DNA of 64,000 bases, taken from NCBI RefSeq assembly GCF_024171925.1, contig NZ_JAMTCO010000009.1, positions 62,001 to 126,000 of the forward strand, given 5' to 3'. Below, one piece after another: positions 43,230-62,881 of the stretch. The notes under the pieces are model-generated. The model was not told where the DNA came from. It saw nothing but the letters and a program-made list of their open reading frames with translations, and did not search any database. Each line of letters starts with the position of its first letter. Within the stretch, counting starts at the first letter, position 1. A program made the position numbers and the translations under genes. The DNA is from Actinokineospora diospyrosa. GTDB taxonomy: Bacteria > Actinomycetota > Actinomycetes > Mycobacteriales > Pseudonocardiaceae.

Positions 43230-43526
43230 ATGGCCAACCGTTACGGCTACGACGACGCCACCCTCCAGGGCATCATCACGGCCACCGACACCAGCCTGCA
43301 GAACATGGGCACCCTCAACCAGAACGTCATGGGCATCCAGGGGATGCTGCCCTCGGTCAACAACTCCACCTCCGGCATCAAGCTCGCCGCCGCGATCGGT
43401 GACTGGACCGGCGACTTCAACCTGGTCAAGAACCAGCTCGAGGCGCTCAACGCCAAGGCGCAGGCGCTGCTGCAGACCAACCGCACCGCCGACACCGACG
43501 CGGACTCGGCCTCCAACTCCGCCTGA
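43230..43526 (+). CDS. WXG100-family protein (EsxB-like)
   Basis: A 98-aa helical hairpin protein of typical WXG100 size. Helix 1 is rich in Gln and Thr (LQGIITATDTSLQNMGTLNQ), the turn reads IGDWTGDFN, which keeps a W-x-G, and helix 2 runs to the end (VKNQLEALNAKAQALLQ). It is presumably secreted as a dimer with the next gene's product. The ribosome site is AAGGAG. It lies 18 bp after eccB, in the same operon. Confidence 0.88.
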   Translation: MANRYGYDDATLQGIITATDTSLQNMGTLNQNVMGIQGMLPSVNNSTSGIKLAAAIGDWTGDFNLVKNQLEALNAKAQALLQTNRTADTDADSASNSA

Positions 43527-43589: not shown

Positions 43590-43880
43590 ATGACCGCCTT
43601 CGACATCGACCACGACGGCTACCTCGAGCTCAACGAGCAGCTCTACATGTACGTCCGCCAGCTCGGCGACATCCTCACCAACCTGAACACCTCGCTCAAG
43701 AACATCGAGGTCGCCACCCAGGGCAAGGCCACGCCGCTGTGGCAGGAGGCCCAGCAGCAGTGGACGCTGACCTACACCGACATGGAGACCAAGCTGAACT
43801 CCCAGTCGCTGTCGTCGATCAACGTGCACGAGATCTTCTCCGAGGGCGACAGCCGCGGCCAGGGCATCATGCTGGGCTGA
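43590..43880 (+). CDS. WXG100-size protein with a WQE turn (EsxA-like)
   Basis: A 96-aa two-helix protein following the Esx gene. Helix 1 reads YVRQLGDILTNLNTSLKNIE; the turn is ATPLWQEAQQQW, with Glu where WXG100 proteins have Gly. The end NVHEIFSEGDSRG could hold the export signal. Loss of the Gly makes this a non-canonical member. Ribosome site AGAGGAC. Dimer formation with the preceding product is an inference from gene pairing. Confidence 0.8.
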   Translation: MTAFDIDHDGYLELNEQLYMYVRQLGDILTNLNTSLKNIEVATQGKATPLWQEAQQQWTLTYTDMETKLNSQSLSSINVHEIFSEGDSRGQGIMLG

Positions 43881-43998
43881 TCCCGCGGGGGCGCCGCGCT
43901 CCACTGCCTCCACAGTGGACGCGTGGCGCCCCGCCCCTGCCCCGCCCCCTCGCGCCACCCACACCCCCGCACCCCGCCGCCCACAGGGAGAACCCATC

Positions 43999-44373
43999 AT
44001 GGCGAACATCACCTTCGACGAGGAGCGCTACAACCAGCTGATCCGCGTCCTCGACGACATGGAGGACGCGCTGCGGCTGTCCACCGACTCCGACACCATG
44101 CCGCTGGACTCCGACTTCACCGTCCAGCCCGGCACCCAGAAGTGGCAGACCGCGATCAACCTGGTCAGCAAGGGCAAGGAGTTCGGCGGCTCGGTCGAGC
44201 AGCAGAACGAGCTGATCCGCCAGGCCATCGTGAAGTTCCGCAACGCGCTCGTGGCCGCCAAGGGGATCTTCAAGGAGACCGACGACCTCGCCGAGTACGA
44301 CATCACCCGCTTCATCGCCGAGTTCCCCGACTTCAACGTCGGCGGCGGCTTCAGCGGCACCCCCGGCAAGTAG
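43999..44373 (+). CDS. Small helical ESX-locus protein, probable substrate or partner
   Basis: The 124-aa protein has two or three helices (NQLIRVLDDMEDALRLST, QNELIRQAIVKFRNALVAAKG) and an acidic end with LAEYDITRFIAEFPDF, in which Tyr followed by charged residues recalls the YxxxD/E export motif. No WXG turn is present. It starts after AGGGAG and sits between the Esx pair and the PPE-like gene, so it could be the PE-like partner of that larger protein (inference). Confidence 0.75.
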   Translation: MANITFDEERYNQLIRVLDDMEDALRLSTDSDTMPLDSDFTVQPGTQKWQTAINLVSKGKEFGGSVEQQNELIRQAIVKFRNALVAAKGIFKETDDLAEYDITRFIAEFPDFNVGGGFSGTPGK

Positions 44374-44415: not shown

Positions 44416-46725
44416 ATGCCAGACCCCACGATCCCCGCGACCGGGGACTTCTCCGCCGCGACCTTCGAGCAGATCCTGTTCGCGGTCACCGGTTTGGGCA
44501 GCGACCTCCACGCCCTCCTCGACAACGGCGGTGGGACTGGCGAATCGCCCAACACCTGGTTCACCTTCACCCCACCCGGATCGGCGTCGAACTCCTTCTC
44601 CTACCGCGCCTGGGACAAGTACTACTTCGGCGCCGACTTCAACATGACCGCGTTCAACGCCTGGAACACCGCGTGGAACAACATCAACGACGTGGTGTAC
44701 CGGGCGTCGACCGGCGTCGCCGGGCTGATGAACCGCCCCCACCTCGACGCCTCGCGCACCGTGGTCAACAAGTACCTGACCTTCCTCGACGCCCAGCGCA
44801 CCAGCACCAAGACGTGGGCCGACAGCCTCGACAGCGACGACAGCGCGTTCAAGGGCAAGGCCGCCTACGCGATCCAGGTGAACCTGCGCAGGCTCAACTT
44901 CACCTTCAACGACCTGCACAGCCAGATCTCCCTGGACCGCACGCCGGCGACCCCGGCCGGTCTGGAGGCCGCCTCGACGGCGTTGGCCACCTTCGGCACC
45001 GCCATGTACAACGCGTGGCAGGAGCAGGCCACGTTCCTGCTCAACGCCCCCATGAACACCGCCAACTCCTTCGTCGGCAACGTCAACCAGTACATCAAGA
45101 ACGCGGGCATCGACGTGTCCACCAAGGGCGGTACGCCCCCGTACCTGCTCGACCAGTGGGGGGCTGGGGACCGGGCCAAGGCCGAGCAGTTCATCAAGGA
45201 CGCCTTCGCCCGCTACAGCACCAGCGGCGCCCCCGCGATGCCCACCGACTTCGGCACCGTCACTGGTGACCTCACCACCGCCAACACCTGGCTGAACGTC
45301 AACACCGGCATCAGCAAGGTCGCGATGGTCGCGATGACCAAGCTCGACACCGCGGCCCGCACCGCGCTTGCCAACCTGGACACCGCCTATAAGCGGGCCG
45401 CGCGCGGCTTGGGTGACCTCAAGACCAACCAGCCGCCCACCATCGGCAGCCCGCCGCCGGACCCGAACACGAATCCCAACGGGCCCAACGGCAACACCAA
45501 CGTGCCACCTCCGCCGAACGGCAACACCAACGTTCCGCCGCCGCCCAACGGCAATACGAACGTACCGCCGCCGCCCAACGGCAACACCAACGTTCCCCCG
45601 CCCACCGGCGGCCCCAACGGCGGTCTCAACCTGCCTGGCGGCCCCAACGGCGGGACGAACCTGCCCGGCGGTCCCAACGGCGGCTTGAACTTGCCTGGCG
45701 GTCCTAACGGTGGTCTCAACGAGGCTCTTGGCCCCAACGGCCAACCTAACGGCATCGGCGGCCTGGGCGACCCCGCCAACGGCGGCCTCAACGGTGGCAA
45801 CCTCCCCGGCGGCGCCAATGGCGGATTCGTCCCGCCGGTGCTCCCCCCGAGTCTGCGCCCCGGCGGTCGAGACATCGAGACCCCCAACGGCGGAACGAAC
45901 CTCCCCACCCTGCCGGACCTGGACACCCCCGCCGACGGCACGATCGACGACGACGGCTGGTCTCCCGGTCAACCCACCACCCGCCCCCCGATACTGCCCA
46001 ACCTCCCCGGCGGCACCACCGGCGGCAGCCCCAACGGCGGCGTGAACTTCGGCCCCGGTTCCCTCCCCGGAACCGGCCCCGTGCCCGGACTGGGCGGCGG
46101 TGGTCTCGGTGGCCTCGATGGCCTGGGCGGCGGCGGACTCGGTGCGGGCGGGCTCGGCGGCTCGGGCCTGGACGCCTGGGGATCCGCGGGCGGCGGCGCC
46201 GGAGTGGGCGCGGACGGGTCGTTCGGCGCGGGCGGCGGTCTGGGCGCGGACGGCGCCTTCGGTGCCGGTGGCGGCGCTGGCTTGGGTGGCGACTCGCCCT
46301 TCGGCACACCCTCCGGTGACGGGTGGTCGGACTGGACCGGCAACGGCGCCGACGGCAACAACCAGCAGGGGATCCCCGGCTCCGGCGACCACGACCAACG
46401 CGGTGGGATGCCTTTCTTCCCGCCGATGATGGGCGGCATGGGGGGCATGGGCAACCGGGGCAGCGAGGAGAAGGAGCGCGAACGCACTACCTGGCTCTCC
46501 GAGGACGAGAAGGTCTGGGGCACCGACACCTCGGTGGGCGACGGCGTGATCGGCCGCCCGAACGCGGGCGACCCCGAGATGGACGAGCCCTTGGTCGCCA
46601 CGCACGTGCACCACCGCACGACTACGAAGACCCCGACCACGAAGACTCCGGTTACGAAGACCCCGACCACCCGCCCCGCGGAGACCCAGGACACCACCGG
46701 CACCTCAGCCACCACCTCCGGCTGA
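44416..46725 (+). CDS. PPE-like protein with proline/glycine/asparagine repeat tail
   Basis: The 769-aa protein has a helical N-terminal domain to about residue 345 (WNTAWNNINDVVYRAS, FTFNDLHSQISL) that plays the part of a PPE domain. A low-complexity tail follows, with four units of PNGNTNVPPP and then many GGPNGGxNLP units, a Gly-rich stretch and Thr-rich end (TTKTPTTKTPVTKTP). Near the end, TTWLSEDEKVWGTDT plus GVIGRP is a conserved signature seen in T7SS-linked actinobacterial proteins. No enzymatic motif is seen. It may be a secreted or surface scaffold. Confidence 0.8.
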   Translation: MPDPTIPATGDFSAATFEQILFAVTGLGSDLHALLDNGGGTGESPNTWFTFTPPGSASNSFSYRAWDKYYFGADFNMTAFNAWNTAWNNINDVVYRASTGVAGLMNRPHLDASRTVVNKYLTFLDAQRTSTKTWADSLDSDDSAFKGKAAYAIQVNLRRLNFTFNDLHSQISLDRTPATPAGLEAASTALATFGTAMYNAWQEQATFLLNAPMNTANSFVGNVNQYIKNAGIDVSTKGGTPPYLLDQWGAGDRAKAEQFIKDAFARYSTSGAPAMPTDFGTVTGDLTTANTWLNVNTGISKVAMVAMTKLDTAARTALANLDTAYKRAARGLGDLKTNQPPTIGSPPPDPNTNPNGPNGNTNVPPPPNGNTNVPPPPNGNTNVPPPPNGNTNVPPPTGGPNGGLNLPGGPNGGTNLPGGPNGGLNLPGGPNGGLNEALGPNGQPNGIGGLGDPANGGLNGGNLPGGANGGFVPPVLPPSLRPGGRDIETPNGGTNLPTLPDLDTPADGTIDDDGWSPGQPTTRPPILPNLPGGTTGGSPNGGVNFGPGSLPGTGPVPGLGGGGLGGLDGLGGGGLGAGGLGGSGLDAWGSAGGGAGVGADGSFGAGGGLGADGAFGAGGGAGLGGDSPFGTPSGDGWSDWTGNGADGNNQQGIPGSGDHDQRGGMPFFPPMMGGMGGMGNRGSEEKERERTTWLSEDEKVWGTDTSVGDGVIGRPNAGDPEMDEPLVATHVHHRTTTKTPTTKTPVTKTPTTRPAETQDTTGTSATTSG

Positions 46726-46950: not shown

Positions 46951-47349
46951 ATGTCCACCCCACTGCACAACGAACTGGCCACCGCCCTGGCCGAACTCCG
47001 CCAGCAGCAGGAGCGCATCGCCACCGCCGTCGACACCGTCGCCAACGCCACCACCACGGTCGCCACCGAGGACCGCATGGTCGAGGCGACCGTCGACGGC
47101 CAGGGCAAGCTCATCGAGCTCAAGTTCACCGGCCGCCGCTGGCGCGACCTGGCCCCCAAGGAACTCGCCAGCCGCCTGGTCGACACCATCGCCAAGGCCC
47201 AGGAGCAGTCCGCCAAGTCCTCCGCCGCGGTCTTCGCGGGTCTCATGCCCGGCGAGGTCGCCCCGTCGATGTTCGACCTGTCCGACCCCGCCGCGCTCAA
47301 CGCCGAGATCGGCGCCATGTTCGACAAAGCCGTCAAGGAGTGGCGATGA
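46951..47349 (+). CDS. YbaB/EbfC-family protein of the ESX locus
   Basis: The 132-aa protein has the YbaB layout: N-terminal helix (LATALAELRQQQERIATAVD), beta strands around MVEATVDGQGKLIELKFTG, and a C-terminal helix (LASRLVDTIAKAQEQSAKSS). YbaB proteins bind DNA as dimers, and paralogues occur inside ESX loci of mycobacteria and relatives (EspL-like), where they help substrate handling. The next gene overlaps by 4 nt (ATGA), so the two are co-translated. Confidence 0.88.
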   Translation: MSTPLHNELATALAELRQQQERIATAVDTVANATTTVATEDRMVEATVDGQGKLIELKFTGRRWRDLAPKELASRLVDTIAKAQEQSAKSSAAVFAGLMPGEVAPSMFDLSDPAALNAEIGAMFDKAVKEWR

Positions 47350-47651
47350 GCAGGCTGTCGGTCGACCCCGAGGGCCTGCGCCAGGGCGGGGTCAACATCC
47401 AGGCGACCGTGGACCTCGCGGTCAACATCTGCAACGAGCTGTTCGTCGCCGCCGAGGAGAACCGGGGCGCGGGCGGGACCGGCGAGATCGGCGAGAAGTT
47501 CGACAGCGGCTACCGGCCAGGTGAGGAGCAGGGGCTGAAGTTCCTGCGCCTCATGCAGCGCACCATCGGCGAGACCGGCAGCCGCACGGTCAAGACCGCC
47601 GGTGTGTTCAGCGAGGCCTCCGACGACGCCGACGGCGCTGTCCGGCCCTGA
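47346..47651 (+). CDS. EspC-like small type VII secretion target
   Basis: A 101-aa protein: LSVDPEGLRQGGVNIQATVD for helix 1, then EKFDSGYRPGEEQGLKFLRL and a final helix. This is the layout of EspC/DUF2580-like targets, which are substrates or chaperones of ESX export. The start ATG 47346 overlaps the stop of the YbaB gene. It stands directly before the giant gene and may co-export with the giant protein (inference). Confidence 0.82.
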   Translation: MSRLSVDPEGLRQGGVNIQATVDLAVNICNELFVAAEENRGAGGTGEIGEKFDSGYRPGEEQGLKFLRLMQRTIGETGSRTVKTAGVFSEASDDADGAVRP

Positions 47652-47718
47652 TCGCGGGCTCCGAGCCGCCCCCACCCGAGCCACTCCCACCCGAGCTACG
47701 CCAGGAGGTGAACGACCG

Positions 47719-50700
47719 ATGGCCATGATGGTGCCCGACGAGGTCCGCAAGCTGTTCCAGGTGCTCACCGGCGAGGAGTGGCCCGACGCCAACGAGGACA
47801 AGCTGCGCGCCCTCGCCGACGCGTGGGACCGGGCCGCCTACCGGCTCTCCGGCGAGCTCGCCCCGCAGTTGCGCACCGCCGTCGTCACCATCAGGTCGAA
47901 CTTCCACGGCGCCGCCGAGCAGGCGTTCGCCAACCGGATGGCCCCCTACGTCGAGGGGGCGAACAACTACATCTCCATCGCCGACGAGCAGTTCCGCGCC
48001 CTGGCCAAGTTCCTGCGCGACCTGGCGCTGGAGGTCGAGTACATCAAGCTGGTCTCGATCCTGTCGCTGATCATGCTGATCGCCGAGATCGCCTGGGCCA
48101 TCGCCGCCGCCTTCGGCACCGCGGGCGCCAGCATGGCCTGGCTCGCCGCCCGGATGGCGATCGTGCGCTGGCTGCTCAAGTCGCTGCTGGGCAGGCTGCT
48201 GATCAAGGTCGTCCAGGCGCAGATCGTCGGCATCGCGTTCCAGTTGGTCATCGACGTCGTCGCGCAGCTCATCCAGTTCGGCATGGGCACCCGCACCGAG
48301 TGGAACCCCAAGTACACCGCTAGCGCTGCAGCCGTCGGTGCCCTCGGTGGCGCTCTTACCCTGCCGCTGGCCGGTTTCGGCAAGGCGATCGCGCACATCA
48401 CCACCTCTGGGCTCGACTCGTGGCTGGGCAAGATCGGCAAGGACGCCTTCGACTGGCACAAGGTCATCCCGGACAAGATCACCGAAATCGGCATCGAGGC
48501 GTTCCACGAGACTCTGACCGAGGCGCTCTATAAGTACGCCACCGAGGGCGAGTTCGAGATGAACCCGTACTCGACCACCTCTGGTGCCGTTTCCGGCACG
48601 GGTGGCGTTGTCGGCGGTGCCATCGGCGACGCTCTAGCACCGCCCAAGCCCGCCCCCACCACCAAGGGCCCGCAGACCACCCCCCAGACCCGTCCTGACG
48701 GGATTACCGGTGACACGACGGGCAAGGGGGGCTCGAACCCTCCCCCCAGCTCAACGTCCACTACGACCGTGCCGACTACCAACGTCCCGATCACCACCCC
48801 GCCCACGGGCGACCGAGGGCTGGGCGGCGGCAACAACTCCGGTCAGGTCGGCGGCACGGGCCAGCAGGGCGGCACCGGCGCGCCGGGGTCGCAGCAGGGG
48901 ACTGGCACCGGAGGGAACGGGGTCGGCGGGGCCAGCACGCAGGCGCCCCCGGTCACCCAGCCCGTCAACCAGGGGCAGGGCCAGCCCGTCCAGGTCGGTG
49001 CGGGCCAGCCGGGCCAGGTCCCGCAGTCGCAGAACGGCCAGCCCCAGACCCCCCAATCCCAGAACGGCCAGCCGCAGAACGGCCAAGGGCAGAACGGCCA
49101 GTCCCAGACCCAGCAGTCCCAGACCTCCCAGTCCCAGAACGGCCAGAACGGCCAGTCCCAGAACGGTCAGAACCAGGGCGGTCAGGGGCAGCCAAGCCAG
49201 TCGCAGGGTGGCCAGAACCAGTCGAGCCAGAGCGGCCAGTCCCAGCCCGGCCAGGGCCAGTCGCAGAACGGGCAGTCGCAGAACTCGCCGACGCAGTCCC
49301 AGTCGAGCCAGACCACCCAGTCCGGTCAGACCCAGCCCGGCCAGACCCAGACCACCACCTCGACCTCCGGCCAGCAGCCGTCCAACCAGCCGGGCACCAC
49401 CCAATCGACCACATCCCAGTCGAGCACCCAGTCGTCGAACCAGCCCGCGGCCACCCAGTCCACGTCCCAGTCGACGACCCACTCCACCACGCAGTCCTCG
49501 ACCACCCAGTCCAGCACCACGCAGTCCTCGACCACGCAGTCGACCACGTCCCAATCGACGACCGGTCAGTCGAACCAGTCCTCGACCACCCAGTCGAACC
49601 AGCAGTCGAGCACCCAGTCCTCGAACCAGACGGCGAACAACCAGGGCGCCAAGCCGACCACCCCGGCCACCACTGCGAGCACCACCCAGTCGACGCCCCA
49701 GTCCACCACCCAGTCCAGCACCACCCAGTCCACAACGGCCCAGTCGACGGCCACCCAGTCGACCGGGAACCAGACCAGCACCACCCAGTCCTCGTCGAAC
49801 CAGGCCCTCACCCAGGGCAAGCAGCCCGCCACCAGCACCCAGTCGAGCACCACCCAGTCGACCAGCACCCAGTCGAGCACGACCCAGCCGAGCACCACCC
49901 AGTCGACGACGGCCCGAACCACCGTCCCCTCGACCGCCAAGACCCCCACCCCGCCGGGCAAGCCCGTTACCGCGACCGCCTCGGTCGGTGGCAAGCAGCC
50001 CGCCAAGAGCACCGCGAAGCTCACCAAACCCGCCCCGAAACCGGTCACCAAGCCGTCCTCGACCGCGCCGACCCTGCCCAAGTCCACCCCCGGGCAGGCT
50101 CAGGAGACCGCCACCGTCGGCACCCAGCCGGTGTCCACCAAGCGCCCCCGGCGCAACCCGCCGACGTCCACGCCGAAGCTGAAGCCCACCACCGGCAAGT
50201 TCCAGGACTTCCGTGTGTGGGTCGGCGGTATCAACAGCGTCAAGGGCGACATCAACTGCGTTGACGCTTCCGTCGCGTTCCACTCCACTTGGCGCGGTAA
50301 CCCCACCACGGCCGGTAAAGACCGGGCTGGCGCCAGCCTCGCCAGCGAGCGCACCGGCTACGCCCCCGCGTTCCTCGGCGACGGCAAGGCCGCCCTCGCC
50401 GAGGTGGAGAAGCGCGTCAAGCGAGGTGGCCACGGAACCGACGCCATCGTCTTCACCACCCCACCCGGTGCCAAAGACGGGCACGCCTGGAACGTCGTCA
50501 ACCAGAACGGCGAGGTGTTCCATGTGGACGCCCAGTCCGGCACCTGGTCCACCACGGGTCCGGACGCGGGCAAGGTGTGGGCGATCGTGCTCGACCCCGA
50601 GGGCACCTTCGTTGATGGTGACACGGCCTTCAATGACACAGTCAACGAAAGCGCTGAATCGCAAGCGATAGGCGACTCGTTCGGGCAGCGCCCGCCCAAC

Positions 50701-53700
50701 AACATCAACACTCTTGCCACGCAAGCGCTTAACGCCACAGAGGGCCACCGCGACGCGGCGACCCTATCGGTGAGTCGAGCCGACCACGCGCAGCGTTCGG
50801 CGCAGGCGCAGGTATACGGCGCGGCCGAGCCGCACCGGCAAGCCCAGGCAGCCGTAACTGCGACTCAGGCCGTGTCGACCCCACTAGTGCAGCAGTTGAA
50901 CGCGCTGCGCGGGCAGATCAACACAGCGATCACCACGCTCGGTCTCCAAGTGCAGACCGAGAGCGGGCTCCAGCAGCAGGTCGACCAGGCGGACCAAGCC
51001 GAGGACACGGCCGGGATCGCCCTCGACAACGCCCAGACCCTGCTCGACAACGCCATCCCGGCCAACATCGGCACGGCGACCATCGCCCGCGACGCCCGCC
51101 AGACCGCGTTGGACCAGCTCGTGCTCAACCACGGCCCCCTGCGCGCCCAGTTGGCACAGGCCACCCTGACCCGGCAGGGCACGCAGACCCAGATCGCCAA
51201 CCTCCGCTTGCAGGAGGCGGCCGCCCACGCCGCCGCCCGCGGTCCGCAGGCCGCCACGACCGCCGCCGCGGCGAGCGCGGTCACCGCGACCCAGCGCCTC
51301 GGGGCCGCCACCACCGAGCTGAACCACACCACCGGGCACCTGGCCACCACCCGCACCCACCAGCAGACCGCCGACCAGCACGTGACGACCGCGGCGGGCC
51401 TGGTCACCCAGATCCAGACCGAGTCGGCGACCGAGATCCTGCGGCACAACGCCGCGCAGGCCGCCGACCTCACCGCCACCACCGCCGAGCAGGCCGTCGC
51501 CCGGCTGGACCAGCAGGTGGGCGACCTCACGACCCGGATCAACACCCTGCGCGACACCGTCGCCCAGGCGAAGCTGGACGTGGCCCGCGACAAGCGCGCC
51601 GTGGCCGCCGCCAAGGCCCAACTGGCCGCCAACGCCGGATCGAGTTCGACCGCCACCCCGGGCCAGAGCACGACCACCACCACCCCCGCCCCTGCCGTCG
51701 TCGACCCGGCGATCGCGCTGCAGGAGACCGCGATCGGCAAGGCGGAGGAGGCGATCGTCCGGCAGGAGACCGAGATCGGCACCCTCGACCGGCAGCGCCA
51801 GGGCATCAACACCCAGCTCGGCACCGACCGGCCGGAGTCGGTGCGCCTGCGCGGCCTCGCCAACACCGCGCAGCTGGCCGCCGACCAGCAGGCCGACGCC
51901 GTCAACACCCTCTACACCGCGCTCACCACCGCCCGCGACAACGCCCAGTTGGCCGCGCAGAACGCCGCCGCCTCCGCCCAGTCCGCCGCCAACACCGCGC
52001 GCAACGCCAAGGACGCCGCCGCCGACGTCAAGACCGCGGCCAAGCAGGGCGACGTCGAACGCGGCCTCACGCTGCTCACCGACGTCCCCTTCGCCGAGCG
52101 GATCGTCATGGAGGAACTCGGCGACACCACCGCGGTGTCCAACGCCGTCGGCGGCCTGTTCAACGACCACCCCGGTGTGGTCAACCAGGCGGGGCAGACC
52201 GCGGCCAACGCCGTGGTGAACCACCTGGGTGACATCGTCAACCAGGGCCACGAGATCACCGTCGACCTGCCCAACGGCACGACGGCCCGGGTCCTGCTCA
52301 CCGGTCGCCCCAAGCGCCCTGGTGACACCCGCAAGGCGACGACGGTCAACGCCGTGCCCAACTCGCACCCCGACGTCGTCAAGACCAAGCGCGACGACAC
52401 GCACAACCCGAAGGCGGTCACGTCCTCGAGCAACCTGCCGGTGCGCGTCCCGTTCGTCTCGCTCGCCCCGATCGTCGACGGCGGCCTGTTCCTGCGCCCG
52501 ATCGGGTCCGCCGGGTTCACCATGAAGCGCTCGCAGGGCATGACCTCCAACGACATCAGCAGGCCGGGTGTGCGTACCGGGGACCGGCCGTGGGTGGAGA
52601 CCGACTTCGAGATCGTGGCCACCCGCATCGGTGGTCCGATCGGTCCCGTCACCGCCACCGTGCACGGCGGGGTACGCGTTCCCGCCGTGGTCCCGACCAC
52701 CTCCGCGCCCCAGCCACTGCCCGCGATCGGCCGCAACGAACTCACCTCTGACGCGGTCCGCATCCCCACCGCGTTCACCGACGGTGTCGCTACCGCGCTG
52801 AACACCACCGACCACCGCAATGAGATCACCGATCTGCTCGGGTCACCCCGCGTGCGGCACATGCCTAACAACGGCACCATCACCGAGACCATCGGTGGCA
52901 CTCAGGTCACGATCACCCCCAACGGCGCCCCGCAGATCACGCTCATCGGCCCGTCCACGAAGGTCGACGAGCAGCGCACGGGCGTCAACCCGTCGTCGGC
53001 TGTCACCAAGGGCGGCGACGTCACCGCGGCGCTGGCCTTGGCCGTCGGCAAGGATGTCCCGGGCCTGCAGTGGTTCGTCGGCCTCTTCAGCGACTTCGCC
53101 AGTGGCCGCAGCGGCGGCTACAACCGGGGCAACGAGTCCGCTGTGGAGCGCAACTCGTCGCAGCCCGAGTTGGTGTACCAGGTAACCCGTCCACTGACAG
53201 TTACCGCTAACGGCAACCAGGTCAACGACACCGTCACTGAGCTGGTCACGGTTCCGGTGCCATTGGCCCGGCAGTTGAACCTGACTCTCCCGCTGCATCT
53301 AGACCCGACCAACGTGCAGGCAAGGACAGCGGGCAACCAGCCTTACATCATCGGCACCGACGACATCACCGCTGTGCCCGGCAAGGACCAGATGCTGACC
53401 TTCCTCACCAACGGCCTGGACGCTACCGGCCAGGCTGCGGTGCGAGAGAAGTTCAACAGCGACCCCAAGACCGTCACAGCCATCTTCAACTCCATGCACG
53501 GTGGCGAAGAGGTCACCTGGGTCGCCGACGGGCGGTTGCACAAACTCGAGATCTACACCCAGGTCGTGCCGCCGGCGATGAGCTACCCGTCCGGGCAGGC
53601 TAAGGGCACTGTGCAGGACCAGGTCACCTCACAGCGCAGGCGCACCGACCAGATGAGCCGCAACGCCAAATTGGGTGTCGGCGGCGAGGTCCGCCCCACC

Positions 53701-56700
53701 TTCAGCGGCGACAAGCCCGCCAACGGCAACCCCAACGCCGCGGGCACGTCGTCGCAGGGCCTTCCCCGCGTGGTCATCTCCGGCACCTACGAGCGCAACC
53801 GGTCCTCCGCGGTCGGCACCAACGGCCGCGACGGCCGCATCACCGCCTACGGTGGCGAGTACCGGGGCTTCGACGGCACCTTGGAGCTCGTCGTCGTGCA
53901 CCGCGACACCCCGGCCCCCAACTGGTTCCGCCGCGTGATCATGGGCGGCAAGATGACCTTCGGGCCGCCGTCGGCCGACCGCCTCGTCGAACCGACGGCC
54001 GCCGACGTCGACACCGCGCGCACGCTCAACACCAACGCGCCTGCCACAGCACCCCGGGTCACTAAGCAGACCATCCCCAACGCCGTCTCCATCTCGGCGC
54101 CGGTCGACAAGTTCGCCTGGTCCGACAAGGCGATGGCCCCCTCGACGATGACCCCCGGCCTCTACGTCGGCACCGCGCCCAACCAGCCCAACGGCACCGT
54201 CGTGGTCGACCCGGTCCAGTTCGGCGAGTTCGCGGGCATCGAACACGTGCGCGTCAGCCCCAACTCCACCGAGGGCCTCAACCTCGTCCTCGCGAAGAAC
54301 GTGCAGACCCTGCCGGTGGTCAACCCGCCCGCGAACATGCCCGCCCCCGTCACCCGCCGGTCGCCGTTCATGAGCGGTACCTGGCCGTCGTGGGGCACCC
54401 GCACGCTCACCGAGACCAACCGCGGCGCGGGCATCCCCCAGCGCCAGTTCCGCTACAAACTCTCAACCCTCACCAAACCCGGTACCACTGCCGCCGACGC
54501 TGTCCGCGGGTTCGTCTCCCAGGTCGGCAGGCGAGGCGCTGCCGTGCTCGGGCTCAACGGCGAGAAAGCAGGCCCGCACAAGCTGTACGAGCCCGGCAGG
54601 CTCACCGACATGAACGGCGCCATCTCCGCCACCGCCACGTACTCCTCCCCGCGCGTAGTGGATGTGCGCAAGGACGGGCAGCTCCAACGGCGCCAAGACG
54701 GCGATCTAGTCGTCAACAACAGCAAGCACCGCCAGTTCGGCATCGAAGGCGAGCTTGCCGTGGATGCCATCCCAAGGCGGTTCCACCGCTTCGGCGCAAG
54801 GATCCGGCTCGTCTTCGGTGGCAACAAGCGTTGGGGTAAGGGCAAGGTCAGCGAACTCACCCCCGGCGGTCGGCAGCTCTATAACTACAAGGGCCCGACC
54901 GTGTGGATGACGATGGACGTCCGCTACACCTACACCGGCGACGTCAACATCCGAAACTCCATCAAGACCTCTCAAGCGGAGTCCCTGTCCGTCACCGTCG
55001 ACGAGCCAGACGGCGTCTTGGTGCAGGTGCCTGCCACTACCGCGGCGGAGCTGCTGACCCAGGCGGGCCTACCTATTCCGCCCGAGGTCCAGGCAGTCCT
55101 ACCGGCCCCGCCTGCCGCTACCGGCAACACCCAGCACCTGATCACCGACCCGACCAACCCGGCGTACAACAACTACGCCTCGCACGGCACCACGACGGTG
55201 TTCAACTCCCGCCTGCACGGCCCCGACCCGCTGCAGGGCGTCCGCGCCCGGCTCGACGAGCTCGGCGTGACCGGCAAGTGGCAGACCGACGTGCTCGAGC
55301 GGATCACCGAGCTGTTCTCCAGCCCGCGTGGGCAGATCTCGCTGCGCGACGTGCTCGCCGACTCCGGGGTGATCTCCATCCCGGACAACGACCCGTTCTA
55401 CACCGACGTGGTCGACATCCGGATCACCTCGGCGCCCACCCAGCACGCCCCCGGCATCCCGGCCCGCCCCGCGCTGCCGAACAACCCGCTCACGCCGAAC
55501 TCGCAGACCACCTACTCCTACATCACCACCACCGACTCCGCCCAAGAGACCAGCTCTTACAGCCTTGCCGCCGGTCTGCAGAACGACTTGGTCGTCCGTA
55601 CGGCCGCGCCCAAGGACGCCCAGGGCAACGTCCTACCCGGGTCCACCGCGGGCAACCTCGGCGCACTGCTCGGCGTGGGCAGGCAGGTCTCGGAATCGGA
55701 GACCATGCCGGGCAGCAAGACCCTCAAACCGATGCGGTTGGAGACCTTCGAGCAGCTCGACCGCTCCACCCACGACATGACTTACGCGTTGGAGATCTCC
55801 CGGGTCCGCATCGCCAACCCGGCCGCGGACGCTCTTACCCTTACCGCGGCCCGGCACTTCAACCGCAACAACATGGCCACCACCCCGGTCACCACGCACG
55901 GCTCGGTGGACTTGGTCGCCCCGAAACCCGGCTCGTCGCCCGCGATGACCGCGCCGACCACGCCCGCCACCTTCGACGTGCTCGCGACCAACCCGCTCAC
56001 CCTGCCGCCGACCGACCCGAACTTCGTGCAGCAGCAGTACCTCGACCCGGACTCGATGTGGCACATCGAGTCGCTCGGCTCGGACACCGCTAAAGCCATC
56101 CGCGAGGTCGCCTTCGCGCAGACCTCCAACGCGCCGGTCCCGGTCGGCAACGGTGTTGCCCGCGCCGACTTCCGCACCGCGGGCAACACCCCGTCGCCTT
56201 ACACCGCGAAGGGCACGACCTCCGAGTACGCGCTGCACACCCTCACCACCGGCACCGGCCTGCACAACGGCGGCTGGTCGATGTTCAGCAACGGCTCGTA
56301 CTCCACCAAGGGCATCGTCGGTGCTAAGCGCACCTTCCACGACGAGCTGCTCGACGTCTCCGTCGCCGCCCGGTTCGTGCCGGGGTCATTCACCCTGGTG
56401 CCGCTCAACAACCCCGGCAAGGTCGACCACGGCCGCGAAACCGAGGACATCACCCTCACCGGGTCTTCCCGCACGGTCACCTGGTCGCGCGGCATCACCG
56501 CGTCCGGCCTCGGCGGCGGCACGGTCAAGGACCCCAACGACAAGCTGACGCCCGCACCCGCGACCCTGCAGACCACCCCGACCGTCGGCGTCGACAGCGG
56601 CATCGGCAACCCCGAGTCCTGGTCCAACGGCGCCTTCGACCTGACCGTCATCGCCCAGGGCGGCCGGTCCTACCTGTTCAACGCCAACGCGGAGTTCTAC

Positions 56701-58722
56701 GTGCAGACCACGCCGCGGCGCACCAACGTGGTGATGAGCACGATCAAGGGCTGGTTCGGCAGGCAGCCGGTCCCGTCCACGGTCAAGATCACCACGAGCA
56801 ACGACGTCCGGGTCCGGGTCTGGGAGGCCGACGCGCTGCGCCAGGGCCTGATCACCCTCGCCGACGTCTACACCACCGCGGGCACCGCCCCGCCCGCCGG
56901 TCTCGCCTTCACCCCGGCCGCCGACGGCATCATCCTGCACCCCCAGGGCACCCCCGCGGTCCCGCCGCCCGGCCTGGTCAACCTGGGTGCCGCCGACGTC
57001 CGCGGCCGCACCCTGCGCGTCGAACCCGGCGTCACCCAGAACCAGGTCGTGGACTTCGTCGCTGGTCTGGGCCTCGACCTGCGCCCGCGCACCTTCGTCG
57101 TCCCGCCCGGCAGCGCCTTCACCGCCCAGGACATCGCCGACGCCGTCGCCGCCCGCACCGCGCCGGGGGACGTCGCGGGCACCGCGCTGCAGCCAGACCC
57201 GGTCGTCCCCAACTTCACCCCCACCCCGCGCCGCCGCGGCACACCCGCCGTCCGCACGCCAGCCGTCCGCACACCGGTCTTGCCCGCCAACCAGACCAAC
57301 AACGGCGGATCGTCGTCCTCGCGCGGCCCCGGCCCGTTCACCCCCAGCACCCAGCTCACCACGATCCCCGAGGGGAACGCGCCCGGCGACAACGGCCCGC
57401 CCGGGTCCCAGTCGTTCCAGATGACCACCTTCGCCAGTGGTTCCAACAGCAACCGCCCCACCAACGGCGTCGACGAGGTGACCGGTCCGTGGAACTCAGC
57501 CGATCACATGACGACCCCGGAGGTGAGCCCAGCACCGACCGCAGTGAACTCAAATGGGTCGGACTCCAACGGGTCGCGCGGTACTAAGCGCTCACGCGAA
57601 GACTTCGAGTCGGACTTCGGCGCGGTCACCCACCCGGAGCCACCCGGCACCCGCAGCGTCCAAGACACGCTCACCCCCGCTTCCGCCCAGGACGTGCTCG
57701 CGCTGGAAGCGGTCGTCCCCACCGGCACCCGCTTCACCGACCCCGCCCTGTTCGTAGACCTGGTGAACGGCGACCGGACCACCCCCGGCCGCGACATCAA
57801 CTGCGTCGACGCCGCTGTCTCCTTCCACTCCACCTACCACGGCCAACCACGCGTGGCCGGCATCGGAAACCCCGGCCAGGCCCCGCGCGGCGCCGTCAGC
57901 AAAGCCGCTGAGTGGACCTCTTACGCCCCCGAGTTCGTTGGCACCGGCTCGAAGGCCCTCGGTGACGTCATCGAACGCGTCACAAAGGCGGGCCACGGCG
58001 CCGACGCCATGCTGATCGCCTTCGGTGCCAATGGCGGCCGCGGCCACGCTTGGAACGTGGTCAACCACAACGGCACCGTCTCACTGGTCGACCCCCAGCA
58101 GGGCACCATCGTCCCCGCGACCCCCGACGCGCTGCCCGGTCTCGGTCGCGTCCACGCCATCCCGCTGGACGCGAACAACCAGTTCATCCCCGGCACCCCC
58201 GTGCGCGGCCTCCCCACGGGCCTCCCGTCGGGCATCGCCGACGACTTCGCCGCCATCACCGCCATGCCCAACCCCGACTGGGCTGCGCACGTGGACGAGG
58301 TAGGCCAAGAACTCGACGCCCTTCGAGACTCCGTCGACTCCTCTTTCACCAAGGACCAAGCCGACGCACTGTCGCTGCACCTGAGGGCCGTCGACATCCA
58401 GCGCATGCGCGCGCTGTCCGGCGCCAACGACATCATCACCCTCCGCGGTACCGAGTACACCCTCGTCCCGTACCGCGGCGGCTACCGCTTGGTGTCCGAC
58501 ACCGCGGCGGACCCAGGATTCATGGCCGAAATAGCCGCCTCGATCCTCGGCCGAAGCATTTTCGCGTTGGTCATCGGCGCCGACGCCGAAGCCCCCCAGG
58601 TCCTCGAATTCCCGCCCCGGGGTCGCCCCCTGCCGGTCGACCCGGCGGATTTCGAGTTCGGCTCCGAGTTCGACTCGGAGGTCGACGCGGAAGAGGACGA
58701 GAAAGAGCCGCAGAAGGTATGA
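47719..58722 (+). CDS. Giant T7SS-linked toxin-like protein with two glutamine deamidase (Tox-PL) domains
   Basis: The 3667-aa protein starts with a WXG100-like helical domain (residues 1-110, FHGAAEQAF in the turn), followed by hydrophobic helices to about 200 as in CpnT-like proteins. Then come a Pro/Thr linker, a Q/S/T-rich spacer (about 410-740), and a first papain-like Tox-PL domain (829-968) with Cys847 in INCVDASVAF, His922 in GHAWNVVNQNG and Asp937 in VDAQ. An Ala-rich coiled-coil block (about 1000-1450) and a 1700-residue beta-rich region follow. A second Tox-PL domain near the end has Cys3362, His3443 and Asp3458. Both triads are intact. Such domains deamidate glutamine in target proteins. 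The strong AGGAGGTG fixes the start. Confidence 0.85.
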   Translation: MAMMVPDEVRKLFQVLTGEEWPDANEDKLRALADAWDRAAYRLSGELAPQLRTAVVTIRSNFHGAAEQAFANRMAPYVEGANNYISIADEQFRALAKFLRDLALEVEYIKLVSILSLIMLIAEIAWAIAAAFGTAGASMAWLAARMAIVRWLLKSLLGRLLIKVVQAQIVGIAFQLVIDVVAQLIQFGMGTRTEWNPKYTASAAAVGALGGALTLPLAGFGKAIAHITTSGLDSWLGKIGKDAFDWHKVIPDKITEIGIEAFHETLTEALYKYATEGEFEMNPYSTTSGAVSGTGGVVGGAIGDALAPPKPAPTTKGPQTTPQTRPDGITGDTTGKGGSNPPPSSTSTTTVPTTNVPITTPPTGDRGLGGGNNSGQVGGTGQQGGTGAPGSQQGTGTGGNGVGGASTQAPPVTQPVNQGQGQPVQVGAGQPGQVPQSQNGQPQTPQSQNGQPQNGQGQNGQSQTQQSQTSQSQNGQNGQSQNGQNQGGQGQPSQSQGGQNQSSQSGQSQPGQGQSQNGQSQNSPTQSQSSQTTQSGQTQPGQTQTTTSTSGQQPSNQPGTTQSTTSQSSTQSSNQPAATQSTSQSTTHSTTQSSTTQSSTTQSSTTQSTTSQSTTGQSNQSSTTQSNQQSSTQSSNQTANNQGAKPTTPATTASTTQSTPQSTTQSSTTQSTTAQSTATQSTGNQTSTTQSSSNQALTQGKQPATSTQSSTTQSTSTQSSTTQPSTTQSTTARTTVPSTAKTPTPPGKPVTATASVGGKQPAKSTAKLTKPAPKPVTKPSSTAPTLPKSTPGQAQETATVGTQPVSTKRPRRNPPTSTPKLKPTTGKFQDFRVWVGGINSVKGDINCVDASVAFHSTWRGNPTTAGKDRAGASLASERTGYAPAFLGDGKAALAEVEKRVKRGGHGTDAIVFTTPPGAKDGHAWNVVNQNGEVFHVDAQSGTWSTTGPDAGKVWAIVLDPEGTFVDGDTAFNDTVNESAESQAIGDSFGQRPPNNINTLATQALNATEGHRDAATLSVSRADHAQRSAQAQVYGAAEPHRQAQAAVTATQAVSTPLVQQLNALRGQINTAITTLGLQVQTESGLQQQVDQADQAEDTAGIALDNAQTLLDNAIPANIGTATIARDARQTALDQLVLNHGPLRAQLAQATLTRQGTQTQIANLRLQEAAAHAAARGPQAATTAAAASAVTATQRLGAATTELNHTTGHLATTRTHQQTADQHVTTAAGLVTQIQTESATEILRHNAAQAADLTATTAEQAVARLDQQVGDLTTRINTLRDTVAQAKLDVARDKRAVAAAKAQLAANAGSSSTATPGQSTTTTTPAPAVVDPAIALQETAIGKAEEAIVRQETEIGTLDRQRQGINTQLGTDRPESVRLRGLANTAQLAADQQADAVNTLYTALTTARDNAQLAAQNAAASAQSAANTARNAKDAAADVKTAAKQGDVERGLTLLTDVPFAERIVMEELGDTTAVSNAVGGLFNDHPGVVNQAGQTAANAVVNHLGDIVNQGHEITVDLPNGTTARVLLTGRPKRPGDTRKATTVNAVPNSHPDVVKTKRDDTHNPKAVTSSSNLPVRVPFVSLAPIVDGGLFLRPIGSAGFTMKRSQGMTSNDISRPGVRTGDRPWVETDFEIVATRIGGPIGPVTATVHGGVRVPAVVPTTSAPQPLPAIGRNELTSDAVRIPTAFTDGVATALNTTDHRNEITDLLGSPRVRHMPNNGTITETIGGTQVTITPNGAPQITLIGPSTKVDEQRTGVNPSSAVTKGGDVTAALALAVGKDVPGLQWFVGLFSDFASGRSGGYNRGNESAVERNSSQPELVYQVTRPLTVTANGNQVNDTVTELVTVPVPLARQLNLTLPLHLDPTNVQARTAGNQPYIIGTDDITAVPGKDQMLTFLTNGLDATGQAAVREKFNSDPKTVTAIFNSMHGGEEVTWVADGRLHKLEIYTQVVPPAMSYPSGQAKGTVQDQVTSQRRRTDQMSRNAKLGVGGEVRPTFSGDKPANGNPNAAGTSSQGLPRVVISGTYERNRSSAVGTNGRDGRITAYGGEYRGFDGTLELVVVHRDTPAPNWFRRVIMGGKMTFGPPSADRLVEPTAADVDTARTLNTNAPATAPRVTKQTIPNAVSISAPVDKFAWSDKAMAPSTMTPGLYVGTAPNQPNGTVVVDPVQFGEFAGIEHVRVSPNSTEGLNLVLAKNVQTLPVVNPPANMPAPVTRRSPFMSGTWPSWGTRTLTETNRGAGIPQRQFRYKLSTLTKPGTTAADAVRGFVSQVGRRGAAVLGLNGEKAGPHKLYEPGRLTDMNGAISATATYSSPRVVDVRKDGQLQRRQDGDLVVNNSKHRQFGIEGELAVDAIPRRFHRFGARIRLVFGGNKRWGKGKVSELTPGGRQLYNYKGPTVWMTMDVRYTYTGDVNIRNSIKTSQAESLSVTVDEPDGVLVQVPATTAAELLTQAGLPIPPEVQAVLPAPPAATGNTQHLITDPTNPAYNNYASHGTTTVFNSRLHGPDPLQGVRARLDELGVTGKWQTDVLERITELFSSPRGQISLRDVLADSGVISIPDNDPFYTDVVDIRITSAPTQHAPGIPARPALPNNPLTPNSQTTYSYITTTDSAQETSSYSLAAGLQNDLVVRTAAPKDAQGNVLPGSTAGNLGALLGVGRQVSESETMPGSKTLKPMRLETFEQLDRSTHDMTYALEISRVRIANPAADALTLTAARHFNRNNMATTPVTTHGSVDLVAPKPGSSPAMTAPTTPATFDVLATNPLTLPPTDPNFVQQQYLDPDSMWHIESLGSDTAKAIREVAFAQTSNAPVPVGNGVARADFRTAGNTPSPYTAKGTTSEYALHTLTTGTGLHNGGWSMFSNGSYSTKGIVGAKRTFHDELLDVSVAARFVPGSFTLVPLNNPGKVDHGRETEDITLTGSSRTVTWSRGITASGLGGGTVKDPNDKLTPAPATLQTTPTVGVDSGIGNPESWSNGAFDLTVIAQGGRSYLFNANAEFYVQTTPRRTNVVMSTIKGWFGRQPVPSTVKITTSNDVRVRVWEADALRQGLITLADVYTTAGTAPPAGLAFTPAADGIILHPQGTPAVPPPGLVNLGAADVRGRTLRVEPGVTQNQVVDFVAGLGLDLRPRTFVVPPGSAFTAQDIADAVAARTAPGDVAGTALQPDPVVPNFTPTPRRRGTPAVRTPAVRTPVLPANQTNNGGSSSSRGPGPFTPSTQLTTIPEGNAPGDNGPPGSQSFQMTTFASGSNSNRPTNGVDEVTGPWNSADHMTTPEVSPAPTAVNSNGSDSNGSRGTKRSREDFESDFGAVTHPEPPGTRSVQDTLTPASAQDVLALEAVVPTGTRFTDPALFVDLVNGDRTTPGRDINCVDAAVSFHSTYHGQPRVAGIGNPGQAPRGAVSKAAEWTSYAPEFVGTGSKALGDVIERVTKAGHGADAMLIAFGANGGRGHAWNVVNHNGTVSLVDPQQGTIVPATPDALPGLGRVHAIPLDANNQFIPGTPVRGLPTGLPSGIADDFAAITAMPNPDWAAHVDEVGQELDALRDSVDSSFTKDQADALSLHLRAVDIQRMRALSGANDIITLRGTEYTLVPYRGGYRLVSDTAADPGFMAEIAASILGRSIFALVIGADAEAPQVLEFPPRGRPLPVDPADFEFGSEFDSEVDAEEDEKEPQKV
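48960..49930 (+). repeat. Q/S/T low-complexity repeats inside the giant gene
   Basis: The coding repeats run as irregular SQNGQ and then TTQSST units. They are in frame without interruption and look like a flexible stalk. The DNA repeat CCCAGTCGACC-like units make this stretch prone to slippage and assembly error. Confidence 0.75.
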
Positions 58723-58833: not shown

Positions 58834-59196
58834 GTGACCGCGCTACTCGACCTGGGCCACCAGCAGCTGACCGCCTACCTGGGCGCGGTCGCCACCGAGG
58901 TCGGCGTCCGGCCGGAGTCGGTCATCGTGCACGCGGGCTCGGCCTGCCTCTGGCTCGACCGCCGGGTCGCCACCCACCCCGGCCGCGACGCCGCCCTGCT
59001 CTGGGACCCCCAGCACGGCTGGTCGCTCGCCGTGGAGACGCACTCCGGCGAGGACCTCATCGTCCTGCGCTACCTGGGCGGGGCCCTGTGCCCCTCGCCG
59101 CGGGCCGTGGCCGGGTTCACCACCGCGGCCCGCCACGGCCTCCCGGTCGGCCACCCCGACCCCCCGACGTCCTTCCCCGTGTCGATCGCCGCCTGA
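58834..59196 (+). CDS. DUF6292-like protein, possible immunity or accessory protein
   Basis: This 120-aa protein has the pattern of the DUF6292 family: LTAYLGAVATEVGVRPESVI, RDAALLWDPQHGWSLAVE and DLIVLRYLGGALCPSPRAVA. Family members are small, cytoplasmic, and common in actinobacteria; their function is not known. It lies 111 bp after the giant toxin gene on the same strand, the place where an immunity gene would be expected. That role is only a positional inference. The GTG start follows GAGAGGGA. Confidence 0.75.
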   Translation: MTALLDLGHQQLTAYLGAVATEVGVRPESVIVHAGSACLWLDRRVATHPGRDAALLWDPQHGWSLAVETHSGEDLIVLRYLGGALCPSPRAVAGFTTAARHGLPVGHPDPPTSFPVSIAA

Positions 59197-60348: not shown

Positions 60349-60461
60349 TGATACTTAAAACAGCCATTCGATGGTCCTGTTAATGGATTCTCCGGCAATG
60401 TGGGGAAACCGGCCGAAAAGTCCGGAAGAAGCGTCTGGCAACTGGGGAAACGGCCTGTTTA

Positions 60462-60490
60462 TTGACGCTGGAATGGACTGGTCCATACAT
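60462..60490 (+). promoter_or_regulatory. M4 protease promoter with a palindrome in its spacer
   Basis: TTGACG (60462-60467) and ATACAT (60485-60490) are 17 bp apart. The spacer contains the palindrome TGGAC-TG-GTCCA at 60474-60485, ideally placed for a repressor to block polymerase. The start codon lies 49 bp downstream. Confidence 0.5.
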
Positions 60491-60538
60491 TGGCCGTCCG
60501 AGTTCTTCGGTATTCCCTGCATACCAGAGGAGTTTGGT

Positions 60539-62881
60539 GTGAAACGCACCCTTGCCCTCGTGGTGGCCGCGAGCGCGGCCACCCTCGCCGTGTACGCGGT
60601 CACCGGCGCCGCGGGCGCGGCCCAACCCGCGCCCCAGGCGGCCCCCTCCCCGGTGGCGCTCGCGGTCGCCGCCGCCGACAAGGCGGCGGCATCCGGTCTC
60701 GACGCCCTCGCCAAGGGCCCCGACGAGCAGTTCACCCGCCGCGCGGTCTACCAAGGGGGCATCCCCGGCCGCAAAGAGCTGTACTACGTCTCCTACGACC
60801 GCACCTACAAGGGGTTGCCGGTAGTCGGCGGTGACGCCGTAGTGGCCACCGACGCCGCGGGCAACACCCTCGACACCGTCGCCGCCAACCGCGGCGGGCT
60901 CGCCGTGTCGACCAAGGCCAAGCTCACCGCGCAGCAGGCCGAGAAGGTCGCCCGCGCCAAGGTCGCGAAGGTCGACAAGGTCGAGTCCACCACGCTCTCG
61001 GTGTTCGCGGGCGGCCACGGCACCCTGGTCTACGAGACCGTCGTCGCCGGGAGCCGTGCCGACGGTGTCCCGACCCGCCTGCACGTCTTCGTCGACGCCC
61101 AGACCGGCGCCGTGGTCGACTCGGTCGACGACGTGCGCGCGGGCACCGGCACCTCCCAGTGGAACGGCCCGAACCCGCTGACCATCGACACCAGCAACAA
61201 CAGCACCGTCGACAGCACCCGCCCCGGCCTCAGCTGCGTCGACTACTCGACCAAGCAGCCCTTCACCAAGGCCAACAACTCCTTCGGCAACGGCCAGGCC
61301 ACCAGCAAGGAGACCGGCTGCGTCGACGTGCTGTTCTCCACCCAGAAGCAGTGGGGGATGCTCAAGGACTGGCTGGGCCGCAACGGCATCGACGGCAACG
61401 GCCGCGGCGTGCAGGTCCAGGTCGGCCTCAACCAGGTCAACGCCTACTGGACCGGTGACCACATCGAGATCGGTCGCAACCAGGCCAACCAGTGGATCGC
61501 CTCGGTCGACGTCTCCGCGCACGAGCACGGCCACGCGATCGACCAGTACACCCCCGGCGGCGCGGGTCGCGAAGCCGGTCTCGGCGAGGGCACCGGCGAC
61601 ATCTTCGGCGCTCTCACCGAGGCGTACGCCAACGAGCCCTCCCCGTACGACGTCCCCGACTACACGGTCGGCGAGTCGGTCAACCTGGTCGGCAACGGCC
61701 CGATCCGCAACATGGCCAACCCGTCGCAGGTCAACGGCGACCCCAACTGCTACTCCAGCGCCATCCCCAACACCGAGGTCCACGCGGCCGCGGGTCCGTT
61801 GAACCACTGGTTCTACCTGCTCGCCGAGGGCACCAACCCCGGCGGTGGCAAGCCGACCAGCCCGACGTGCAACAGCACCTCGCTGACCGGCATCGGCATC
61901 CAGAACGCGGGCCGCATCTTCTACAACGCGATGCTGCTCAAGACCTCTGGCATGTCCTACGCCAAGTACCGCGTCGCCACTCTCACCGCGGCTAAGAACC
62001 TGGACTCGACCTGCGCGCAGTTCAACGCTGTTAAGGCTGCCTGGAACGCGGTTACCTTGCCCGCCCAGTCCGGCGAGCCCACCTGCACCGGCCAGCCCGG
62101 CAACGAGTTCAGCATCTCGCTGAACCCCACCTCCGGCACCGTCCAGGCGGGCGGCAGCACCACCTCGACCGTCTCGACCGCGACCACCTCCGGTAGCGCG
62201 CAGACCGTCGCGTTGTCCGCCACGGGCCAGCCCAACGGTGTGACCGTCACCTTCAACCCGTCCTCGGTCCAGTCCGGCGCGTCGTCCACGCTGAACATCG
62301 CCGTTGGCTCCGGCGTGGCCGCCGGGACCTACCCGATCACGGTTCGCGGAGCGGGTGCCACCTCGCACACCGTCACCTACAACCTGACCGTGGGCGGACA
62401 GCCCCCGACAGACGACTTCTCGCTCGCGCTCAACCCGACCAGCGGTAGCACTGCCGCGGGCGGTTCTGTGAGCACCACGGTGGGCACCGTCGTCACCACG
62501 GGCGGTTCCCAGAAGGTCAACCTCAGCGCCTCCGGCCTGCCCTCCGGCGCCACCGCGACCTTCACCCCGTCGTCCGTCGCCTCCGGCGAGAACGCGACCC
62601 TCACCATCGCCACGACCGCCGACGCCGCCCCCGGCGACTACTCGGTGACGGTCACCGGCGAGGGCACCGCCTCTCACTCCGCCACCTTCACCCTCACCAT
62701 CACCGGCGGAAACCCGGGTGGCTGCGGCGGCGTCGCCGAATGGAGCTCGTCGCAGTCCTACGTCCCCAACGACGAGGTCTCCTACGGTGGCCACAAGTGG
62801 AAGTCCACTTGGTACTCCACCGGTGCCGAGCCGGGAGCCCCCGGTTCCTGGGCGGTCTGGCAGGATGCTGGCACCTGCTGA
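60539..62881 (+). CDS. Secreted M4 (thermolysin-like) metalloprotease with chitin-binding end
   Basis: The 780-aa protein has a signal peptide ([20 protein letters not shown]), FTP/PepSY-type pro-domains to about residue 190, and the M4 catalytic domain with HEHGH at 328-332 and the third ligand Glu in [14 protein letters not shown]. Then come two immunoglobulin-like repeats ([34 protein letters not shown]) and a CBM5/12-type chitin-binding domain ([20 protein letters not shown]). It should cut proteins bound to chitin or fungal walls. The GTG start follows AGAGGAG. A terminator follows. Confidence 0.95.

Follow-up and report, generated by a model that had tools for sequence, protein, structure and literature searches.

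A candidate multi-payload carrier with two Tox-PL domains, encoded beside an ESX system in Actinokineospora diospyrosa

Known proteins with papain-like toxin domains

Tox-PL1 domains (PF15644) are papain-like and bear an NC-H-DxQ signature. As passages of a published survey describe (Zhang 2012, PMC3482391), they occur in type VII secretion system (T7SS) toxins, specifically in WXG-headed actinobacterial proteins, at the C terminus or internally. The same passages state that Tox-PL1 may also act as a peptidase, that internal copies are predicted to process their own protein, and that the immunity family Imm35 is specific to Tox-PL1. They also record a giant protein with multiple toxin domains. 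Passages of a second paper (PMC10318531) describe PF18626 as a family of protein glutaminases, likewise papain-like and glutamine-acting, and place OspI and the Pasteurella multocida toxin in a papain-like fold class with glutamine-deamidase members, the kind of activity that we propose here from sequence.

Here, we analyze a stretch of 64,000 nucleotides from the 8.1-Mb genome of Actinokineospora diospyrosa (called the window), which encodes a giant protein of 3667 amino acids with a WXG-type head and two domains bearing the NC-H-DxQ signature. Unlike the Tox-PL1 T7SS toxins in the survey passages, the giant carries two constrained and separately descended copies that flank one conserved body. 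Also unlike them, it has a conserved pre-segment containing the peptide KRSR, dead tandem arrays exist in a relative, and Imm35 is absent from its own genome. PF18626 occurs on the same carrier in five relatives and was not found in the window protein (Pfam, E up to 1). Unlike the class of OspI and the P. multocida toxin as those passages present it, the internal domain (D1), the C-terminal domain (D2), and an 18-sequence Tox-PL profile have no convincing sequence match in the PDB, where searches gave just weak matches to unrelated molecules (best E 0.011).

The original prediction, made from the sequence of the window, was that two copies are exceptional. This view stands in part: several giants with multiple Tox-PL domains exist among the relatives, and passages of the published survey already contain a multi-toxin giant (PMC3482391). 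What is unusual is the presence of enzymes before and after a conserved body, their swapping, and a positional tag, not the two copies as such. Among titles and abstract openings of the open-licence PMC literature, we recognized no description of this carrier or tag. By description, the giant can be likened to MARTX-type multi-effector toxins, in which one very long carrier likewise bears several enzyme payloads; these toxins differ from the giant in their secretion route.

A giant gene beside an ESX system

The giant gene occupies window positions 47719-58722 on the + strand, as do all of its features below. It is a single open frame that starts with ATG and is preceded by AGGAGG at 47703-47708; an alternative, longer frame starts with GTG at 47602. 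Scanned against Pfam at E up to 1, the protein yields exactly two families, PF25547 and PF15644, while NCBIfam gives no match at E 0.1 and PADLOC none at E 0.01. PF25547 marks a WXG100_2 export-type head at residues 4-147 (47728-48159; E 1.3e-18). A stalk rich in Q, S, T, G, and P, delimited by composition, follows at about residues 311-800 (48649-50118) and evolves fast, with 28-73% identity to six orthologues. Next come a KRPR basic motif (residues 808-811; 50140-50151), kept as K-R-x-[RK] in 7/7 window-type proteins, and the internal Tox-PL domain, D1 (residues 834-972; 50218-50634). Behind D1 lies an Ala/Gln-rich segment, probably helical as judged by its composition (residues 986-1500; 50674-52218); such an Ala-rich segment precedes the body in relatives both with and without D1. 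The body itself consists of about 1650 residues without cysteine (residues 1501-3150; 52219-57168). A KRSR tag (residues 3290-3293; 57586-57597) sits inside the conserved pre-segment, 55 residues ahead of the C-terminal Tox-PL domain, D2 (residues 3345-3497; 57751-58209). D2 ends 170 residues before the C terminus, and the tail beyond it (58210-58719) has no family match over the scanned residues 3510-3667.

The giant has two cysteines in 3667 residues, and both are the catalytic ones. Similarly, cysteines number 2, 2, 2, 2, 2, and 3 in the six nearest relatives (L062-L067), equal to their numbers of Tox-PL domains, and L070 and L074, two frames with dead Tox-PL domains only, have none.

Components of an ESX system are encoded next door: an EccC-like FtsK/SpoIIIE ATPase (36298-40317, - strand; PF01580, E 1.4e-85) and, on the + strand, EccD with its YukD and transmembrane domains (40007-41794, frame start not refined; PF19053, E 8.3e-75, and PF08817) and EccB (41877-43211; PF05108, E 7.7e-93). 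Between EccB and the giant, all on the + strand, lie genes for three small ESX-cluster proteins of 98, 96, and 152 amino acids (43230-43526, 43590-43880, and 43915-44373), whose order is kept in relatives; a 769-amino acid protein without Pfam match (44416-46725), of which about 345-370 amino acids align in relatives; a conserved YbaB/EbfC-like protein (46951-47349; PF02575, E 4.1e-9); and, directly upstream of the giant, a conserved protein of 103 amino acids (47340-47651). Seven upstream genes, from EccB onward, were tested at 12 named loci. At least six are kept in order at seven loci (L102-L107 and L109), four at L111 (Actinophytocola algeriensis), and none at L110, L112, and L113; L108 starts inside its giant, which places its upstream side outside the comparison. 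Thus, one 3667-residue gene with a WXG100-like N terminus, a Q/S/T-rich stalk, and a link to ESX, as originally predicted, is what the analysis recovers.

Two Tox-PL domains of separate descent

PF15644 matches two stretches of the giant (whole-protein E 3.8e-29), which score 63.9 and 68 bits where the cut-off is 24.1, and these are the only two matches in the genome. The complete signature is present in both: NC847, H922, and D937-A-Q in D1, and NC3362, H3443, and D3458-P-Q in D2. The domain search that the original prediction called for therefore agrees with its two complete putative Tox-PL domains; the residue numbers that it gave for the triads (C847/H922/D937 and C3362/H3443/D3458) are exact, and the distance that it put at about 2400 residues is about 2370. 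Compared with each other, also as proposed originally, D1 and D2 share 44% identity in an alignment of 159 positions (E 8e-37).

Against six orthologues, dN is 0.036-0.265 and dS 0.50-0.78 for D1, and dN is 0.026-0.193 and dS 0.37-0.92 for D2. Both domains are under constraint among orthologues. A Tox-PL tree that took in 67 of 103 domains unites the internal domains of Actinokineospora body proteins, D1 among them, in a single clade of 13 (support 100/100). The window-type terminal domains form a separate clade of seven (support 96/96). D1 and D2 are thus old paralogues from two separate lineages. In Actinokineospora sp. NBRC 105648, the module running from D1 to the body is duplicated, giving a protein with three Tox-PL domains, all with triads, and the middle domain of this protein belongs to the internal clade.

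A constant body with apparently exchangeable payloads

Within the family, a 261-amino acid piece of the body matched 18 of 249 genomes, and the body is present in 8 of the 16 genomes of the genus. In a phylum sample of 396 genomes, the same piece matched the source genome only; this search scored few first-look candidates per genome with that one query, so distant bodies could be missed. All copies examined for composition (17/17) lack cysteine. At E up to 1, no Pfam family matches the window copy, and the other 16 members of the body alignment have weak scattered matches only (best E 0.094). A body profile had no match among PDB sequences at E up to 10, and the body had none in a plasmid collection. 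Profile-profile comparison of 200-residue windows within the body yielded no convincing repeats, with a best probability of 12%.

The enzymes around this body vary. Specifically, PF18626 lies ahead of the body in a protein of Actinophytocola oryzae, after the body in G108, adjoining the internal Tox-PL domain in G029 and G091, and, in G164, with a Tox-PL domain on either side. In A. bangkokensis, a Scabin-like ADP-ribosyltransferase (ART) domain (E 2.9e-18) is inserted between the body and D2. The body protein of G131 shows no Tox-PL, PF18626, or ART domain in the pieces scanned. Tox-PL modules also seem to change places: the internal domain of G029 scores 89.0 bits with window D2 versus 68.9 with D1, that of G091 80.9 versus 62.8, and both bear the pre-segment typical of D2. 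In the tree, a long branch separates these two domains from both clades. It is as if a D2 module had moved ahead of the body.

Because other enzymes occupy the same two places in relatives, the giant looks like a carrier with exchangeable payloads, that is, a multi-warhead delivery protein and not a single-tip toxin. Moreover, the recurrence on one carrier of two Pfam families of papain-like enzymes that act on glutamine would favor deamidation over proteolysis as their common chemistry.

Intact and dead Tox-PL copies

Domains covering fewer than 90 profile positions and the overlapping loci L075 and L099 were dropped before counting, and a weak middle Tox-PL domain of L091/L126, which has its own NC motif, was left outside the resulting 28 intact and 16 dead domains of body proteins. 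The internal clade keeps C-H-D in 13/13 members, and two further internal domains, those of G029 and G091, are also intact. The other 29 domains, all of which follow a body, divide into 13 intact and 16 dead. Five proteins have a dead D2 together with an intact internal copy (L071, L073, L091, L126, and the first gene of L069), and in five others the last Tox-PL domain is intact and no internal one was found (L068, L130, L131, L134, and L136). The latter include the single-domain orthologues that the original prediction proposed to look for, e.g., in A. bangkokensis (L068) and Actinophytocola algeriensis (L130). Only dead copies are present in the second gene of L069 and in L070. Overall, at least one Tox-PL domain with a complete triad, before or after the body, is present in 18 of the 20 body proteins where Tox-PL was found; three further body proteins (L108, L127, and L128) show none.

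A. inagensis has tandem runs in which every copy is dead. The 4784-amino acid frame of L070 (G009 contig 21, minus strand) has a body followed by nine Tox-PL domains, none with a triad. L074 (G009 contig 18, from 5418) is a stop-to-stop frame of 3172 amino acids in which a WXG100_2-like head is accompanied by 12 Tox-PL domains in tandem, with intact triads in 0/12; the frame contains no cysteine, and no body was found. Six of its domains pair with the other six, resembling a duplicated block, and the six pairs have dN 0.18-0.45 versus dS 0.19-0.35. Since dN is close to dS, there is no purifying signal, unlike for D1 and D2 of the orthologues, and the notion that dead arrays are constrained modules is rejected.

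Two further long frames contain Tox-PL domains. L077 (G015 contig 1, 2826000-2845900) is an 18021-amino acid frame with two identical Tox-PL domains 12.4 kb apart, both without triad; the identical copies may stem from recent duplication within the frame or from the assembly. L096 (G048 contig 1, 7473000-7492900), is part of a 10954-amino acid open frame in which no body was detected; six of its Tox-PL domains have complete triads, and two do not.

A basic tag ahead of Tox-PL domains

KRSR followed by xxFE stands at -54/-55 from the Tox-PL start in 12 of the 13 intact terminal domains of body proteins, in linkers after the body that are 127-690 amino acids long. Aligned by module, KRSR is present in 15/15 tagged intact copies: the 12 terminal domains, the two internal ones of G029 and G091, and the middle domain of NBRC 105648, where it lies at -49 and FE is lacking. 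The 16th intact row of this alignment, the end of A. inagensis L072, has a degenerate form. In G029 and G091, the tag precedes the intact internal domains and is absent ahead of the dead terminal ones. For D1, the seven window-type proteins have K-R-x-[RK] at -24 to -34, and the basic motif is missing in the A. inagensis paralogues, whose D1s are intact. The latter are, in fact, the only exceptions: K[RK]x[RK] occurs within 100 residues upstream of 22/28 intact and 0/16 dead domains of body proteins, and all six intact domains without it belong to A. inagensis paralogues. The association between motif and intactness has a Fisher probability of 3.6e-7, a value that ignores relatedness and includes nine of the 16 dead domains from one array. 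Within the same distance, the dead L074 array has 0/12.

A DNA scan of 249 genomes for codons of the type KRSR[DE]xFE gave 18 places. A reversed control pattern gave 23, so the bare count is at background, and weight lies in peptide and position: 11 of the 18 places encode KRSR[DE]xFE, all 11 ahead of Tox-PL domains of this kind, and the other seven encode different peptides. The tag does not mark active Tox-PL domains in general: outside the body family, K[RK]x[RK] lies within 100 residues upstream of 0/26 intact and 2/21 dead domains. G177, a genome outside the 18 with a body match, has an intact-looking D2-type domain with the pre-segment and without KRSR. Similar peptides also occur away from Tox-PL: the A. 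oryzae protein, which has no Tox-PL, contains KRPRLD in its stalk region, about 800 residues ahead of its PF18626 domain, and in L073 KRSR is found also 217 residues ahead of D1. These cases link the tag to body and payload in combination. It is possible that the tag is a release site, a docking site, or a nuclear-localization signal; the last idea comes from its resemblance to general consensus rules for such signals.

What the giant may do

The explanation that we favor, with roughly even confidence, is that the giant of this soil actinobacterium carries several payloads, is exported through ESX, and delivers deamidases that act in trans, perhaps on the cells of eukaryotes. From the sequences, the constant carrier comprises the WXG100_2 head, the low-complexity stalk, the Ala-rich segment, and the conserved cysteine-free body. 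Enzyme domains are mounted before and after the body: here, two Tox-PL domains with complete triads from separate old lineages, and, in the same places in relatives, Tox-PL, PF18626, or Scabin-like ART domains or no recognized domain. The neighboring ESX (type VII) system would export the carrier, the payload enzymes would deamidate glutamines on proteins of another cell, and the basic tags ahead of the Tox-PL domains would serve payload release or targeting. Because no conserved immunity gene was found, the target cell is perhaps more likely a eukaryote. If this carrier reading is right, free-living actinobacteria use type VII secretion to export carriers of multiple payloads, with a large unclassified body at their core, and the same carrier repeatedly recruits glutamine-acting enzymes. 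The locus would then offer a natural system for the export, splitting, and delivery of an ESX substrate of several thousand residues, with controls made by evolution: intact versus dead, tagged versus untagged, and before versus after the body.

An elaboration that we judge unlikely sees a clade-specific ESX machine that delivers nuclear or cytosolic glutamine deamidases, with the body of about 1650 amino acids as a new translocation carrier and a basic tag for each payload. KRSR (about 55 residues ahead of D2-type domains, in most cases with xxFE behind it) and KR[PR][RK] (D1) would be nuclear-localization or release signals in eukaryotic prey. In another genus, a tagged D2-type module would have come to lie ahead of the body, whereas copies without a tag would decay into dead arrays.

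The main rival to a carrier with payloads acting in trans is self-processing by D1, a division of labor that we hold to be somewhat improbable. Here, D1 would be a peptidase that cuts its own protein and so releases the cargo from the export head, D2 would be the toxin, and cuts at KRPR and KRSR would yield head plus stalk, D1-body, and D2-tail. Passages of the survey do predict internal Tox-PL1 generally as processing domains (PMC3482391), the internal domains are intact throughout their clade and in G029 and G091, and basic motifs lie in the linkers just ahead of both domains of the window protein. Against this arrangement, the five body proteins named above have an intact terminal Tox-PL domain and no internal one that was found, and intact D1s of A. 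inagensis paralogues have no basic motif ahead of them. Furthermore, PF18626 can occupy the place before the body, and D1 is intact though D2 is dead in L071, L073, and the first gene of L069, which argues that release of D2 is not the sole reason for keeping D1. The original prediction had raised the question of whether one copy acts on the carrier itself. For the internal copy, the comparison lends this no support: Tox-PL, a second glutaminase, or an ART takes those places across relatives, and the glutamine content of the stalk is independent of the internal domain. The latter result also bears on self-modification, in which D1 and D2, as deamidases or transglutaminases, would act on their own Gln-rich stalk for surface attachment or crosslinking. 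The window stalk is indeed 20% Gln and the Ala-rich segment 11%, but the seven proteins that carry D1 and D2 vary from 6 to 22% in stalk Gln, and five body proteins that lack D1 (L111, L131, L134, L135, and L136) show 13-15%. Since Gln content does not track D1, action in cis on the stalk is unsupported, the stalk is rejected as the D1 substrate, and we regard self-modification as very improbable.

It is also quite improbable, in our view, that the giant is a polymorphic toxin used between bacteria, with two warheads matched by a cognate immunity protein, either DUF6292 or another neighbor. WXG-type polymorphic toxins are a known class, and a DUF6292 gene (58834-59196, + strand; PF19809) adjoins the giant in the window, as it does in A. 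terrae and A. globicatena; in A. inagensis L104, it lies close by, inverted. However, DUF6292 was not found at the loci of A. auranticolor (L103), A. bangkokensis (L107), or Actinophytocola algeriensis (L111) or at the second A. inagensis ESX locus (L109), and is thus near the giant in some orthologues only, not a constant partner. Across nine downstream regions, of which L105 contributes 863 bases only, no gene is common to all, and the absence from the source genome of Imm35, reported in the survey passages as specific to Tox-PL1 (PMC3482391), likewise speaks against this reading. A missing immunity gene is weak evidence because the partner could lie elsewhere or belong to another family. 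For the giant, we claim membership among polymorphic toxins for its architecture only, i.e., the WXG head, a toxin domain near the C terminus, the ESX linkage, and the effector domains that appear exchangeable among relatives, and not for interbacterial function.

Other genes around the giant

Two metalloprotease genes flank the giant at some distance. An InhA-like M6 gene lies at window positions 30157-32556, about 15 kb upstream, and a thermolysin-like M4 gene at 60371-62881, 1.6 kb downstream; a gene of the latter kind is also near the giant in L102, L104, and L106. Finally, related long frames lie downstream of the giant at three loci (L103, L107, and L111).
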